Source: Geothermobacter ehrlichii (GTDB lineage Bacteria > Desulfobacterota > Desulfuromonadia > Desulfuromonadales > Geothermobacteraceae). Taken from it: a DNA stretch of 64,000 bases. Location of the stretch: contig NZ_VNIB01000001.1 of the NCBI RefSeq assembly GCF_008124615.1, positions 372,001 through 436,000 on the forward strand. Direction: 5' to 3'. The notes beneath the pieces are model-generated. The model was given only the letters and a program-made list of their open reading frames with translations. It searched no databases and had not been told where the DNA came from. Each line of letters starts with the position of its first letter. Position 1 is the stretch's first letter. The position numbers and the translations under genes are program-made. Below, piece by piece: positions 20,222 through 29,988 of this stretch.

Positions 20222-22834
20222 ATGAGCCAGCTAACCGACGACCAGATCGAAATCATTAATGACTTTATCCAGGAAAGCCGTGACATGCTCGACAATCTCG
20301 AGCCGACCATCATCGAGTTGGGACAGAGCTGTCAAAATGTCGACTGCTGGTCGGTTCTGGACTGTTCCAACGAAGCCTGTTCCCGGCACGGCAAATCACT
20401 GAAGACGGCCTGCTGGCTTGACGAAGGCTATATCGGCGATGGCGCCAGAAGGTGCGTCTTTGCCGAAAGCGAAAGCGACTGCCGGAGTTGCCAGGTCTTC
20501 ACGCTGACCAATGGCGATCCCGAAACCATGAACGCCATTTTTCGCCTTTTCCATTCGATGAAGGGGAGCGCCGGTTTCCTCGAGTTCGAAAACGTTTCCC
20601 ATGTCGCCCATCAGGCCGAAAATCTGCTCGATCTGATCCGCTCGGGCAAGATCATGCTCGAGGAAGAGCATGTCGATCTGCTCTGCAAAACCTGCGATTT
20701 TGCGCGCGAGGCGCTCGATTACATCGAATCGAACTACGACGATGAAGGTATGGCCGAAGCTGGTCAGGCGATCGGCGAGGAGTTGGGGAGGGTCATCGAG
20801 TCGGCGAAGAAAAAGGCGGCCAAGACGTCGGATCAAACCGATGATGCCAATCCGGCCACGGCGGATGGCGAGGCTTCCGTTGCGAGTGTTTTTTGTGGTG
20901 ACGAATTTCTCGGCAAGTTTGTCGAGGAGGGCGAGGAACTGCTCAATGCCATAGAAGAACTGGTGCTGGCCTGGGAGAAGGCCCCCGATGACGCGGACCT
21001 TGTCGGGGAATTGTTCCGCAGTATTCACAGTTTCAAGGGCAACTGCGGATTTGCCGGTTACCGGCAGATGGAACATCTGGCGCATCAGATGGAATCGGTG
21101 CTCGATGCTGCCCGCCAGGGGCGCTCTTTCACCGGTGGGCCGCCAGCCGAGGTTCTGCTTCAGTGCGTCGATGCCCTGAGCAAATCGATGGCGTTGGTGG
21201 CGGCCGGTGAAAAGGAAGACGTTTCCTGCATGGAAGAGCTCGGACAGGCACTGGAAGCGGTACTGACTGAAAAGAAACAACCTGAAGCCAGACAGGCGGA
21301 AGCACCGTTGCCCGATCCGGAAGAGTTGCGCCTGGCCGATATCCTCGTTCGTCGCGGGGTGGTCGCCATGGGGACCATGGCCACCCTGATGCGAACCAAG
21401 ACCCGCCCGCTGGTTGATGCGCTGATCGGCTGCGAGATCGCCACCAAAGAGCAGATCGACAAAGCCATTGCCGAGGAGGAGAAGGAGCGCAGGAAGGCCG
21501 AGGACGAGGCCAGGAAGGCGCAAAAGACCGAGAAGAAGGAGATGCCCGGGGCCAAGAATGTCGGCAAGGTGCAGCCTGCCAAACCGGTTCAGGCGGTGAA
21601 GAAACCCCCTGTTCAGGCCAAGCGTCAGGACATTCGTGTCGATCTGGAAAAGCTGGACAAGCTGATCAACCTGATCGGCGAGATGGTCATCGCCGAAAAC
21701 ATGCTGGTGCACAGCCCCGACCTGGAAGGTCTGGAACTGGAGAATTTCAGCAAGGCCAGCCAGCAGATGAGCAAGATTGTGCGCGAATTGCAGGAGATGG
21801 CGATGGTTATCCGGATGATCCCGGTTTCCGGCCTGTTCCGGCGCATGATCCGGCTGGTGCACGATCTGTCGAACAAGACCGGCAAGAAGGTCGAGTTCGA
21901 ACTCGAAGGCGAGGAGACCGAGGTCGACAAGACGGTGATCGAACAGATCTCCGATCCGCTGGTCCACCTGCTGCGCAATTCGCTCGACCATGGCCTCGAG
22001 TCGCCGGAAGAACGTCTCGCTGCCGGCAAACCCGAGAAGGGACTGCTCAAGCTGAGTGCCCGGCACGAAGAAGGGGAGGTCTGGATCACTGTCGAGGATG
22101 ACGGCCGCGGGCTCGACCGGGAGAAGATTCTGGCCAAGGCCATCGACAAGGGGCTGATCGAGGGAGACGGCAGCGAAATGAGCGACCGGGCCGTCTACAA
22201 CCTGATCTTCCAGCCGGGATTTTCCACCGCCGAAAAGATCACCGACATTTCCGGCCGCGGCGTCGGCATGGACGTGGTGCGGCAGAACCTGGAAAAGATC
22301 CGCGGCAAGATCGAGGTCTACAGCAAACCGGGAGAAGGTACGACCATCAAGCTGCGCATTCCCTTGACCCTGGCCATCATCGACGGGCTGATGGTGCGCG
22401 TCGGCGAGACCCGCTGCATCCTTCCCCTGCTGGCGGTGCGCGAAATCTTCCGTCCTCTGCTCGAGAATCTCACCCACACGCCGGACGGCCAGGAGCTGGT
22501 CAGGGTGCGGGAGAATTTCATTCCCATTCTGCGTCTGCACCGGGTACTCGACGTCGAGCCCGAATCACGGTGTCTCGAGGATGGCGTTCTGGTCGTGCTC
22601 GAACACCAGGGAGATCGCATCTGTCTGCTGGTTGACGAGATTCTGGGGCAGCAGCAGACGGTGATCAAGGGGCTGTCCGACTATCTCGGCAATGTCGATG
22701 TCGCCGCCGGCTGCACCATTCTCGGCAACGGCGATGTCTGTCTGATTCTCGATGTCGGCAGCATGATCGATCTGGTCGAGGAAGGAAACTGCGTTGAACT
22801 CGAGCCGGAGCAGGTCTATTTCAGGGCCGGCTGA
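20222..22834 (+). CDS. cheA: Chemotaxis histidine kinase CheA with two Hpt domains and a Cys/Trp-rich insert
   Basis: CheA (870 residues from ATG 20222) autophosphorylates and passes phosphate to CheY and CheB. Hpt-1 runs from residue 8 to about 170 with phospho-acceptor His111 (HSMKGSAGFLEF). It is interrupted between its first two helices by a Cys-rich insert (residues 37-93) with CW pairs at 42-43 and 64-65 and Cys 48, 53, 78, 87, 90. Hpt-2 (about 225-330) has His269 (HSFKGNCGFAGY). A charged linker follows, then the dimerisation domain, the kinase domain (N box LLRNSLDHGLESPEER, G boxes DDGRGLD and GRGVGMDVV) and a CheW-like domain. The weak GGAG is only 2 nt from the ATG; longer in-frame starts exist but lack family similarity. 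Confidence 0.96.
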   Translation: MSQLTDDQIEIINDFIQESRDMLDNLEPTIIELGQSCQNVDCWSVLDCSNEACSRHGKSLKTACWLDEGYIGDGARRCVFAESESDCRSCQVFTLTNGDPETMNAIFRLFHSMKGSAGFLEFENVSHVAHQAENLLDLIRSGKIMLEEEHVDLLCKTCDFAREALDYIESNYDDEGMAEAGQAIGEELGRVIESAKKKAAKTSDQTDDANPATADGEASVASVFCGDEFLGKFVEEGEELLNAIEELVLAWEKAPDDADLVGELFRSIHSFKGNCGFAGYRQMEHLAHQMESVLDAARQGRSFTGGPPAEVLLQCVDALSKSMALVAAGEKEDVSCMEELGQALEAVLTEKKQPEARQAEAPLPDPEELRLADILVRRGVVAMGTMATLMRTKTRPLVDALIGCEIATKEQIDKAIAEEEKERRKAEDEARKAQKTEKKEMPGAKNVGKVQPAKPVQAVKKPPVQAKRQDIRVDLEKLDKLINLIGEMVIAENMLVHSPDLEGLELENFSKASQQMSKIVRELQEMAMVIRMIPVSGLFRRMIRLVHDLSNKTGKKVEFELEGEETEVDKTVIEQISDPLVHLLRNSLDHGLESPEERLAAGKPEKGLLKLSARHEEGEVWITVEDDGRGLDREKILAKAIDKGLIEGDGSEMSDRAVYNLIFQPGFSTAEKITDISGRGVGMDVVRQNLEKIRGKIEVYSKPGEGTTIKLRIPLTLAIIDGLMVRVGETRCILPLLAVREIFRPLLENLTHTPDGQELVRVRENFIPILRLHRVLDVEPESRCLEDGVLVVLEHQGDRICLLVDEILGQQQTVIKGLSDYLGNVDVAAGCTILGNGDVCLILDVGSMIDLVEEGNCVELEPEQVYFRAG

Positions 22835-26723: not shown

Positions 26724-26780
26724 AGACTGGATCAGGGGGCACGACCCTGACGGGATAAAAAACAGGATTTGGAGGACATG

Positions 26781-27152
26781 ATGGGAAAATCGGTTCTTAT
26801 TGTCGACGATTCGAGCACCATGCGCAAGATCGTGGCCCGTTCTCTGCGCCAGGCCGGATTCGATTTCGAAACCATTCTCGAGGCGGCCGATGGCCAGGAA
26901 GCTCTGTCGGTTCTTGATGAAAGCAGGGTCGACATCATTCTCAGCGACATCAACATGCCGAACATGAACGGTGTCGAATTTCTGCGGGAGAAGGCCGACA
27001 ATCCTGCCATTGCCAATATTCCGGTGGTGATGATCACTACCGAGGCCGGTTCCGACATCCTGCGCGAAGCCCTGCAACTCGGAGCCAAGGGGAGCATCAA
27101 GAAGCCCTTTACGCCCGATCAGGTGCAGAAAACCCTGGGAGAGTACGTCTGA
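26781..27152 (+). CDS. cheY: Chemotaxis response regulator CheY
   Basis: CheY (123 residues) carries the signal from CheA to FliM. It shows the acidic pair IVDDSSTMRK, phospho-Asp in ILSDINMPNMNG, Thr in VVMITTEAG and Lys in GSIKKPFTP. I start at ATG 26781 because GGAGG is 5 nt upstream; the ATG just before has only 2 nt. It is the only stand-alone CheY in the window and is followed by its likely phosphatases. Confidence 0.95.
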   Translation: MGKSVLIVDDSSTMRKIVARSLRQAGFDFETILEAADGQEALSVLDESRVDIILSDINMPNMNGVEFLREKADNPAIANIPVVMITTEAGSDILREALQLGAKGSIKKPFTPDQVQKTLGEYV

Positions 27153-27176
27153 GTGTTCGAGTCGAGGAGACTGACT

Positions 27177-27647
27177 GTGGATTATCGCAAATTCATCATC
27201 GATGGAACCCGCGAGATCTTCGAAACCATGCTGATGGCGGAAGTATCTCCGGGACAGCAGAAAGATGTTCAGCCGGAAGAGTTCGAACGAGATCTGACCA
27301 GCATGGTGGGAATGGCCGGTGCCTGCCGGGGGATGCTGGCCATCCATTGTCCGAAGCCGATCGCCCTGGCCATCACCGGCGCTCTGCTCGGCATCGAACT
27401 CGACGATGTCTGCGAAGACGTCTTCGACGCTATGGGCGAGATGGCCAACATGATAGCCGGCAACGTCAAGGCCGTGCTCTGCAACAAGGGACTTGATGTC
27501 AGCTTGTCCATTCCTTCGGTTGTCTCCGGTCCCGATTTCCAGGTTGACAGCCTGGTGGAGGGCAGCCGGACGGTAGTCGCCTTCGATACCCAGGGCGGTG
27601 AATTTCTCGTCGAGCTGCGCTTGGAAGAGACTGCCGTAGCAGCATGA
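27177..27647 (+). CDS. CheX-like chemotaxis phosphatase (first copy)
   Basis: This 156-residue protein starts at GTG 27177, with GAGGAG 7 nt upstream. It has one CheX/CheC-type domain. The phosphatase signature D-x3-E-x2-N is present as DAMGEMAN (around residues 90-97), followed by the hydrophobic MIAGNVKAVL helix. In the family this acid/amide pair hydrolyses CheY-P. It directly follows cheY, which supports the role. No CheZ is visible in the window. Confidence 0.82.
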   Translation: MDYRKFIIDGTREIFETMLMAEVSPGQQKDVQPEEFERDLTSMVGMAGACRGMLAIHCPKPIALAITGALLGIELDDVCEDVFDAMGEMANMIAGNVKAVLCNKGLDVSLSIPSVVSGPDFQVDSLVEGSRTVVAFDTQGGEFLVELRLEETAVAA

Positions 27648-27677
27648 TGACCTACGTTGCCGTACATGGAGGATGGA

Positions 27678-28169
27678 ATGAATCAAGCCTGTGAAAACAT
27701 CGTTGCCAAGGCTTCCGGATACGGCCCTTTACTGACCGAGGCGGTGCAGGAGATCTTCACCGACATGATTCCCATGGCGGTGAGCGAAGGCGAGATACTG
27801 CGGCAACGTCCGCAGGTATTTCGTCGCAATTTCTCCGGTCTGCTCGGGTTTTCGGGCGATATCCGGGGGATTGTCGGCATCCATTGCCCGGAAGAGGTCG
27901 GCCAGGCCGTCTACCAGGCAATGCTCGGTATGCCGGAGGCCGGCGAGGATGGCGAAGTTCGCGACATGGTCGGAGAACTGGTCAACATGCTGGCGGGCGG
28001 ACTGAAGATCCGGATCCAGGAGGGGGGGAGGACCATGGCGCTCGCCGTACCCCAGCTCTTTTCCGGCGGCGAATACCAGATTTATCTGCCTGCCGGAGGA
28101 ACCTGGATGGGGCAGGTGTATCGAACGGACAGGGGGCCTTTTATCGTCGAACTGAAAATTTTCGACTGA
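27678..28169 (+). CDS. CheX-like chemotaxis phosphatase (second copy)
   Basis: The 163-residue product resembles its upstream neighbour in layout: an N-terminal helix with LLTEAVQEIFTDMIPM, a GDIRGIVGIHCPEEVG strand pair, and the signature DMVGELVN followed by MLAGGLKIRI. The signature residues Asp, Glu and Asn are kept, so a CheY-P phosphatase role is plausible. The start at ATG 27678 has GGAGG 5 nt upstream. It may be a tandem duplicate that diverged in the C-terminal half. Confidence 0.82.
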   Translation: MNQACENIVAKASGYGPLLTEAVQEIFTDMIPMAVSEGEILRQRPQVFRRNFSGLLGFSGDIRGIVGIHCPEEVGQAVYQAMLGMPEAGEDGEVRDMVGELVNMLAGGLKIRIQEGGRTMALAVPQLFSGGEYQIYLPAGGTWMGQVYRTDRGPFIVELKIFD

Positions 28170-28182
28170 CAGCGGACTGTTT

Positions 28183-29988
28183 ATGGATCGAACCAAGATC
28201 GCGCAAAAGATTCTCTCAGCCTATCTGCCCAAGGGACAGGAGGAGATCGCCGCCCTGCTCGGACAGGATGTTGTCCTCGAGGATGAAGGCCTTGAATCGA
28301 AAGACAGGGAGGCCTTCTTTGACCAGCTGCAGGGCAAGCAGGTGATTGCGACGATCCAGGTCGAAGGGGAGAAGCCCGGCAATGCCTGGTGCGTGGCCGA
28401 TTTTCGCGACGCCATCCGGCTCGGCGGAACCCTGATTATGCTTCCCGAAGAGGAGATCGCCGAGCGGATCTCCTCGGGTGAGATGGGCGAGGAAGAAAAG
28501 GACGCCTTCGGTGAAATCGTCAATCTGCTGATAGGCGTGCTCTCTTCTTTGTTCGAAACGGTCTATCCAGGCAAGCTCCGAATGGTCAAGACCGGGGTCG
28601 ATCTGGTTGATCCTCTGCAGGTCGCGGCTCGGGAAGAGTGGCCCTTTCCCGAAGGAAGCCTGATCATCCAGGCGGCGAAAGGCAAGCTGGCTGGAGAGGA
28701 TTTCGCCGGCATGTTCTATCTGGTACTGCCGGCCGAACTTGTCGGCGAAGAAGAGGCGACTGTCGGCGATGCCCTGGAAGCCAAAGCCGAGGAAAGAGTA
28801 CCGGAGCCGAGCGACGAGACCGGGAACAAGCTGGGCGGGGGGCAGCCCGTTGCAGAAAGTATGGATGACTCGGCAATAGAGGCAAGGAAAGAAACCGGAA
28901 AAAAAACCGGCATTACCAGACAAAAACTGACCAAGATTCTCAAGGCGGTTCTCGAGCGTCTGCAGGTCGAGGTCGGCGGGTTTCTCGGGCATGACTTTTC
29001 TCTGAAGAATAGACGCATCAGGTTTGCCACCCCGGAGGAAATTTTCAGTGGCCTTCAGGGCAAGCAGGTTCTGGCCGACATTCAGGTCGAAGGGGATGCG
29101 AAAGGGCAGGGCTGGCTGATGATGACCCTGCCCGCCGCCATCCGGCTTGGCGGGACTCTGATCATGCTGCCCGACAGTGAGCTGCAGGTGCGCTTGGCCA
29201 GTGACGAGTATGGCGAAGAGGATTCGGATGCGTTTGGCGAAATCGTCAATATCGTGGCCGGTGTCTATACCACGGTCTTCAAGGATCTCTATGCCGGCGG
29301 CAACCTGCGCTTCGTCAAGATCGACCAGGCGGTGATCGATCCGCTGGTTATCGAGGTCGGCGAGGACTATCCGGTGGCCGACGAGGAATATGTCCTGATC
29401 GAGGCCGAGGCCTTTTTCGACGATGTCAGCCTGGGCGCGACCCGCACCTTCTTTCCGTTGCGGGTTTTCCATCTCAGGCCGGATGACGAAGTCAAGGAAA
29501 CGCCAAAGAACCCGGTCAGCCGGACCACGGATGCTGACGGCGATGGGGATGAAGCTGGTGTCCCATCGGAGCGGCAGCCGGAAGGGCCTTCGGGCGATAC
29601 GGCCGGTTCCGATAGCGGCGAAGAACGGCCGGTGGTCGTGTTGTGCTGTGGTGATGACCAGATGGCCGAAACCTTTCGCAAAGCGGGTGAAGATGTTGGT
29701 TTCAATGTGGTTGTCAGGCCCTTGCATGGAAATTCCGGGGACGAGAAACTGAAATCACCGGCGGTAAGGCTGATCATGCTGGTTTTCGACGATGTCGGCG
29801 AGAAGGGGCTGGCCGCAGCCATCCGCATCAACTCCATTGTTCGTGATCAGGTGCCGATGATTGCCGCTGGCCCCAACTGGACCCGCAGCATGGTACTGCG
29901 GGCCATCAAGTACGGGATCAGGGATATCCTGGTCACACCGGCCGACGAAGAGAGGATCAGCGAAAAGATTCGAGAGCATGCCGCCTGA
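28183..29988 (+). CDS. Tandem CheC/CheX-like protein with C-terminal degenerate receiver
   Basis: The 601-residue protein has three parts. Unit A (about 1-185) and unit B (about 245-430) are clearly homologous: both have LQGKQV-A-IQVEG, AIRLGGTLIMLP and the phosphatase signature DAFGEIVN. An acidic, low-complexity linker (about 430-485) leads to a receiver-like domain (about 485-601). There the phospho-acceptor Asp position reads LIMLVFDDVG (Val) and the usual Lys-Pro reads VTP, so it is probably not phosphorylated. It is the last gene of the che operon, 13 nt after the second CheX-like gene. I infer a role in CheY-P removal or motor binding. Confidence 0.78.
   Translation: MDRTKIAQKILSAYLPKGQEEIAALLGQDVVLEDEGLESKDREAFFDQLQGKQVIATIQVEGEKPGNAWCVADFRDAIRLGGTLIMLPEEEIAERISSGEMGEEEKDAFGEIVNLLIGVLSSLFETVYPGKLRMVKTGVDLVDPLQVAAREEWPFPEGSLIIQAAKGKLAGEDFAGMFYLVLPAELVGEEEATVGDALEAKAEERVPEPSDETGNKLGGGQPVAESMDDSAIEARKETGKKTGITRQKLTKILKAVLERLQVEVGGFLGHDFSLKNRRIRFATPEEIFSGLQGKQVLADIQVEGDAKGQGWLMMTLPAAIRLGGTLIMLPDSELQVRLASDEYGEEDSDAFGEIVNIVAGVYTTVFKDLYAGGNLRFVKIDQAVIDPLVIEVGEDYPVADEEYVLIEAEAFFDDVSLGATRTFFPLRVFHLRPDDEVKETPKNPVSRTTDADGDGDEAGVPSERQPEGPSGDTAGSDSGEERPVVVLCCGDDQMAETFRKAGEDVGFNVVVRPLHGNSGDEKLKSPAVRLIMLVFDDVGEKGLAAAIRINSIVRDQVPMIAAGPNWTRSMVLRAIKYGIRDILVTPADEERISEKIREHAA

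Follow-up and report, generated by a model that had tools for sequence, protein, structure and literature searches.

Predicted CheX-type phosphatase units joined to an aspartate-less receiver: a conserved protein family encoded downstream of cheY in Geothermobacter ehrlichii and its relatives

Introduction

The site at which phosphorylated CheY (CheY-P) is removed shapes chemotactic signalling. In enteric bacteria CheZ is placed at the receptor array, while FliY of Bacillus sits at the motor. CheC and FliY carry two active sites in one body, and non-catalytic relatives such as FliM lose the catalytic Glu and Asn. CheY itself contacts its partners through the face formed by beta4, alpha4 and beta5.

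In catalysis of the CheC/CheX type, an Asn orients the attacking water and an acidic residue bridges to the Lys of the receiver (PMC3035606). Aspartate-less receivers (ALRs), including AmiR, HP1043, FrzS and others, have a receiver fold without the phosphorylatable Asp, and Val, Ile or Leu at that position is rare among them (PMC4395418). The receiver of CheV matters in the motility of Vibrio cholerae (PMC8789113). Desulfuromonas sp. AOP6 and 2873T carry cheA, cheW, cheR, cheB, cheC, cheD and three cheX genes beside flagellar genes, a set that the authors regarded as a unique type, and three cheX genes were reported only in these flagellated Desulfuromonas strains (PMC8235581).

The present analysis concerns a 601-residue protein encoded in a 64,000-nucleotide stretch of the Geothermobacter ehrlichii genome, hereafter the window. 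Like CheX of Thermotoga and Borrelia (PF13690), it has one Glu/Asn site per unit, its units have the CheX fold among their structural matches, and its gene lies in a cluster where cheX genes adjoin cheY. CheX is, however, a single homodimerising domain of about 155 residues, whereas the 601-residue protein has fused units of about 189 residues followed by a dead receiver. The closest folds are those of FliY and CheC (4hyn, 1xkr), known from Thermotoga and Bacillus, with which the units also share their length and the D-x3-E-x2-N signature, but the units have lost the Asn of the first site, and the protein ends in a receiver fold where FliY ends in a FliN/SpoA domain. Its tail resembles the ALRs but differs from them in being fused behind a predicted CheY-P phosphatase and in having a hydrophobic Val, Ile or Leu at the Asp position. 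The V. cholerae CheV receiver (PMC8789113) and ALRs in general (PMC4395418) are the nearest precedents found.

Organization of the locus

The plus strand of the window bears a run of chemotaxis genes in the order cheA, cheW, cheR, cheB, cheD, an HDOD gene and cheY, and downstream of cheY lie two single CheX genes followed by the gene of the 601-residue protein (Table 1). The longest ORF of cheX1 begins at 27153, but the start at 27177 is preferable because this GTG stands behind a good Shine-Dalgarno sequence (GAGGAG); the longest ORF of cheX2 begins at 27657. The cheY product is presumed to be the substrate of the adjoining phosphatases. A long run of flagellar genes, named from their translations, occupies the minus strand to the left of the che cluster. 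It includes, within the window, a FliM verified by Pfam, which begins near LTQEEISELLSAV, a motif of the type through which FliM binds CheY. To the right of the 601-residue protein gene, a sigma-54 activator is read from the sequence of the minus strand, and Pfam places one at the same position in three relatives (L068, L099 and L093).

Table 1. Coordinates of the cheY-cheX-cheX module in the window and of the parts of the 601-residue protein
Feature	Position	Strand	Basis
cheY, stand-alone phosphorylatable receiver	26769..27152	+	Pfam Response_reg 9e-28
cheX1, single CheX-type phosphatase, motif DAMGEMAN	27177..27647	+	Pfam CheX 4.3e-22; GAGGAG before GTG 27177
cheX2, single CheX-type phosphatase, motif DMVGELVN	27678..28169	+	Pfam CheX 7.9e-20; GGAGG before ATG 27678
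601-aa tandem CheX-type phosphatase (predicted) with C-terminal dead receiver	28183..29988	+	ORF; conserved family
Unit 1, residues 1-189	28183..28749	+	AlphaFold2 pLDDT mostly >90; Foldseek FliY/CheC/FliM middle domain/CheX
Active-site motif DAFGEIVN of unit 1, residues 107-114	28501..28524	+	D/E/N conservation in homologous units
Disordered linker, residues about 190-241	28750..28905	+	pLDDT <50
Unit 2, residues 243-431	28909..29475	+	AlphaFold2 pLDDT mostly >90; Foldseek as unit 1; 38% identical to unit 1
Active-site motif DAFGEIVN of unit 2, residues 349-356	29227..29250	+	D/E/N conservation in homologous units
Disordered linker, residues about 435-480	29485..29622	+	pLDDT <50
Aspartate-less receiver domain, residues 482-601	29626..29985	+	Receiver fold; profile matches to CheY sequences
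V534, phospho-Asp position	29782..29784	+	End of beta3 in AlphaFold2 model; never D in 115/115
W566-T567-R568, start of alpha4	29878..29886	+	W and T invariant, third R or K, 115/115
T585, conserved-Lys position	29935..29937	+	T in most; K only in 8 Geobacterales-type forms

Among the 63 loci with at least 2.6 kb of upstream sequence, the order cheY, cheX (one or two copies) and a gene of the 601-residue type, all in one direction, was found in every case (63/63), with cheX in two copies in 59. Since close homologs of the window's cheA, cheR, cheB and cheD were present upstream in only 13-17 of these loci, the cheY-cheX-cheX-gene module is tighter than the rest of the cluster. The host genome encodes three CheA proteins and one two-site CheC, which lies elsewhere beside a CheA; its CheX proteins are those of the locus, and a genome search found no CheZ.

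Several further features of these loci were observed. An additional receiver gene and an additional CheX gene lie between the HDOD gene and cheY in L099 (L099:6583-7461), with similar loci elsewhere, and are absent from the window; a second cheY-like match occurs at the HDOD-cheY position in several other Desulfuromonadales loci. In a Desulfobulbus-type locus (L068:5241-7244), the kinase before cheY has only an HATPase_c domain and a weak Hpt match by Pfam, without a CheW domain. The CheA of the window (20222-22834) contains, at residues about 36-91, eight Cys with CW motifs inserted in its N-terminal Hpt domain, after the first helix and ahead of the phospho-His helix. All eight are also present in the Geothermobacter locus L032, and the insert is possibly a metal or redox site in the phosphotransfer domain of the kinase.

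Predicted structure and active sites of the phosphatase units

The first-pass annotation had described four D-x3-E-x2-N motifs (DAMGEMAN, DMVGELVN and DAFGEIVN twice) in three consecutive ORFs, and all four were found there. Their reading as CheC/CheX-type active sites was borne out by conservation: among 231 homologous units the D is conserved in 230, the E in 231 and the N in 229, far from chance. The proposed internal duplication likewise held, with the two units aligning end to end at 38% identity. Pfam CheX matches the 601-residue protein in two stretches (1.2e-6), the whole-protein score of 29 bits being just above the curated cut-off of 27, and the NCBIfam CheX equivalog gave no match.

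AlphaFold2 modelling of the full protein, using 23 homologs, yielded well-defined units, two disordered linkers and a receiver-like tail, with a pTM of 0.54. In Foldseek, the best matches of the units were Thermotoga FliY, CheC and FliM middle domains, followed by CheX, among them the CheX of Borrelia from its complex with CheY; the values were 2.7e-9 for 4hyn, 2.3e-8 for 1xkr and 3.1e-6 for 1squ. A unit profile searched against PDB sequences gave weak matches to CheC (0.013) and FliY (0.02). Both by fold and by length, the units are a little closer to FliY, CheC and the FliM middle domain than to CheX. A SpoA/FliN fold lacking the active site, the outcome that the first-pass annotation had named as fatal to its reading, is ruled out by the Pfam and Foldseek results: the units fold as members of the CheC/FliY/CheX class and keep the Glu and Asn, and no SpoA/FliN domain was matched by Pfam in the 601-residue protein. 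One weak profile match, L180, is a FliY judging by its sequence: its N-terminal motif is FliM-like and its end FliN-like, which sets it apart from the 601-residue protein.

The N-terminal helix of the units keeps a Glu in 225/231 cases, while the position three residues further on is mostly Ala, Gly or Ser and not Asn, so that each unit has one active site, as in CheX, although its length is nearer to that of CheC and FliY. A second AlphaFold2 prediction, restricted to residues 1-431 and based on 89 sequences, reached a pTM of 0.80 despite the 50-residue disordered linker. So high a value would not be expected if the units moved freely at the ends of a flexible linker, and the two are most likely packed together, in a mutual arrangement that the model predicts with confidence. 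We infer that this packing corresponds to the arrangement of the CheX homodimer.

The C-terminal receiver has lost its phosphorylation site

The tail has a receiver fold, with Foldseek matches to 2qxy, TmCheY and others. Pfam Response_reg scored it at 0.12, below the cut-off, and a profile of the tails of the family matched CheY sequences at about 4e-6. Its key positions were registered on the AlphaFold2 secondary structure and on a family-only alignment of 115 non-redundant proteins. The phospho-Asp position is occupied by Val, Ile, Leu, Met, Ala, Gly or Ser in 115/115 tails and never by Asp; the switch-Thr position holds Gly, Ala or Ser, the aromatic switch position is always Ile, and the conserved Lys is lost, mostly to Thr, except in eight Geobacterales-type forms. 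In the window's protein V534 lies at the end of beta3 and T585 replaces the Lys, which confirms the earlier description of a receiver that cannot be phosphorylated.

The cognate CheY proteins served as a control for the conservation of the tail, expressed as mean entropy per helix. Helix alpha1 is the most conserved helix of the cognate CheY (0.33) but the least conserved of the tail (2.85), whereas the conservation of alpha4 is similar in the two (0.63 in CheY and 0.79 in the tail); the overall means are 0.75 for whole CheY and 1.86 for the whole tail domain. Selection has freed the phosphorylation side of the tail and has kept the beta4-alpha4-beta5 side with its invariant Trp-Thr pair. The conservation of alpha4 in the tail may partly reflect folding rather than binding.

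Distribution and evolution of the family

A search of the order to which the host belongs found the protein in 86 of 136 genomes, or in 84 when two matches at marginal E-values are set aside. FliM is present in 80 of the 136 genomes, and 78 of these 80 carry the protein; the protein also occurs in 6 of the 56 FliM-negative genomes, several of which are incomplete drafts. The protein tracks flagella and is linked to flagellar genes, although a Fisher p-value for the co-occurrence is inflated by the relatedness of the genomes. The three-cheX pattern described for flagellated strains supports this association independently (PMC8235581).

An alignment-based genome scan returned 181 relatives, the best 80 of which are all Desulfuromonadales-like or Desulfobulbales-like. 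Over all gathered loci, before removal of duplicates, 105 ORFs have two units, 14 have three and 13 have one. The three-unit forms (L041, L051, L061 and 11 other loci) measure 734-853 residues and bear the same tail, one being cut at a contig end; such forms occur in Desulfopila-type bacteria. One-unit forms occur in Geobacterales-type bacteria, and phylum-wide sampling added a one-unit form of about 360 residues, within the same bacterial class, in two families (f22 and f24) taken to be Geobacterales. Proteins made of one to three CheX-type units and a dead receiver are a real, conserved family, and probably a functional one.

The tree, built from 56 units, unites units 1 and 2 of the window's family in one clade (support 98/95) and places all units from Desulfobulbales in a second (96/87). 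A single duplication, with all first units of two-unit proteins grouped together, was rejected by the AU test (p 5e-5). The one-unit protein L029 nests among second units, suggesting unit loss, and the first and second units of the three-unit protein L041 are very similar, which points to a recent gain. The tree is compatible either with several unit multiplications or with homogenisation within lineages by gene conversion.

Relatives with other C-terminal parts were also seen. Family f58 has a related phosphatase unit, likewise next to cheY and cheX, that is followed by a CBS pair where the dead receiver would otherwise stand (L137:1456-2619, Pfam), and a similar CBS-type layout is read from the sequence of L138:1357-2502. 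In family f47 (L133:1480-2460), on a deeper branch, a CheX-like unit precedes a more diverged receiver-like tail, and cheY follows.

Discussion

On balance we lean towards the view that the 601-residue protein is an auxiliary phosphatase that acts on CheY-P in flagellar chemotaxis, a dimer ready-made by duplication that its dead receiver docks to a partner. By the mechanism of the family, the Glu/Asn pair of each unit would insert into the active site of phospho-CheY and there place a water molecule for attack, and the two units would form one dimer-like body, the fused counterpart of the CheX homodimer. The flexible linker would carry a receiver that, needing no phosphorylation, could serve as a docking module, and its conserved beta4-alpha4-beta5 face would anchor the phosphatase to the motor or to the CheA array, a location that would in turn set where CheY-P is destroyed. 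Hydrolysis of CheY-P by this protein is predicted from homology, conserved residues and fold. The explanation as a whole is supported by the near-invariant D/E/N residues, by the CheC, FliY, FliM-middle and CheX folds, by the pTM of 0.80 for the unit pair, by the 63/63 gene order, by the lack of CheZ in the genome, by the co-occurrence with FliM, by the dead receiver in 115/115 tails and by the entropy contrast between alpha1 and alpha4. Binding of the receiver to CheA or FliM, as suggested earlier, would fit the location of the conserved residues.

Against the phosphatase reading, proteins of the CheC type can have weak phosphatase activity and serve chiefly to regulate other proteins. The units might mainly be a structural or regulatory module resembling CheC or FliM, as a CheD partner or a C-ring component, given that cheD belongs to the same cluster and that FliY, CheC and the FliM middle domain head the list of fold matches. 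Such a role seems quite improbable to us: the Glu and Asn that non-catalytic relatives such as FliM lack are here near-invariant, Pfam detects no SpoA/FliN domain, and a close cheD homolog was not found beside the gene in Desulfobulbales loci. Slightly more doubtful again is the idea that the tail is a pseudo-substrate, filling and blocking the phosphatase sites of its own chain until CheY-P displaces it. The tail does have a CheY-like fold and is joined through a flexible linker to units that bind CheY, and the Geobacterales-type forms retain the Lys that the phosphatase Glu contacts, but in the two- and three-unit forms this Lys is gone (mostly to Thr), which makes the role less likely, and the phospho-Asp position is hydrophobic. 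Moreover, alpha1 and the phosphorylation side evolve fast, and the full-length model does not indicate fixed docking.

The dead receiver could instead be a sensor, turning the phosphatase units on or off when it binds a partner or a small ligand. ALRs can take other inputs (PMC4395418), and the CBS pair of family f58, beside cheY and cheX, indicates that a typical ligand-binding domain can occupy the C-terminal position. We nevertheless regard a sensor as unlikely, though less so than the two preceding roles, since the invariant residues lie on the beta4-alpha4-beta5 side with no obvious pocket and the former active-site region is variable. As an extension of the docked-phosphatase reading, we tentatively propose, with more doubt than that reading itself, that a dead receiver keeping its output face would act as a permanent address tag for the flagellar switch or the CheA array, placing there a CheY-P phosphatase of several units, and that the number of catalytic units, one to three, would have been raised repeatedly and independently, as if to tune how strong a local CheY-P sink is.

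The earlier statement that no described protein has this exact layout stands in part. A description of a CheX-receiver fusion was not found in the literature searched, and earlier work on CheC-type phosphatases or on CheX with CheY may contain one; the layout is, however, not unique to this protein but belongs to a conserved family whose members have one, two or three units. The cluster had already been noticed in print at the level of genes, and in the portion considered that report counts genes and does not mention the tandem fusion or the dead receiver (PMC8235581). The fusion family apparently had not been described.

If the proposed function is correct, the family would represent a further solution for placing CheY-P removal, one that most of the flagellated bacteria in the order and many Desulfobulbales use. 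Its tail would then clearly exemplify, in nature, a receiver in which binding has replaced phosphorylation as the object of constraint, and the one-, two- and three-unit forms would offer a natural series on the effect of repeated catalytic units in a signalling phosphatase.
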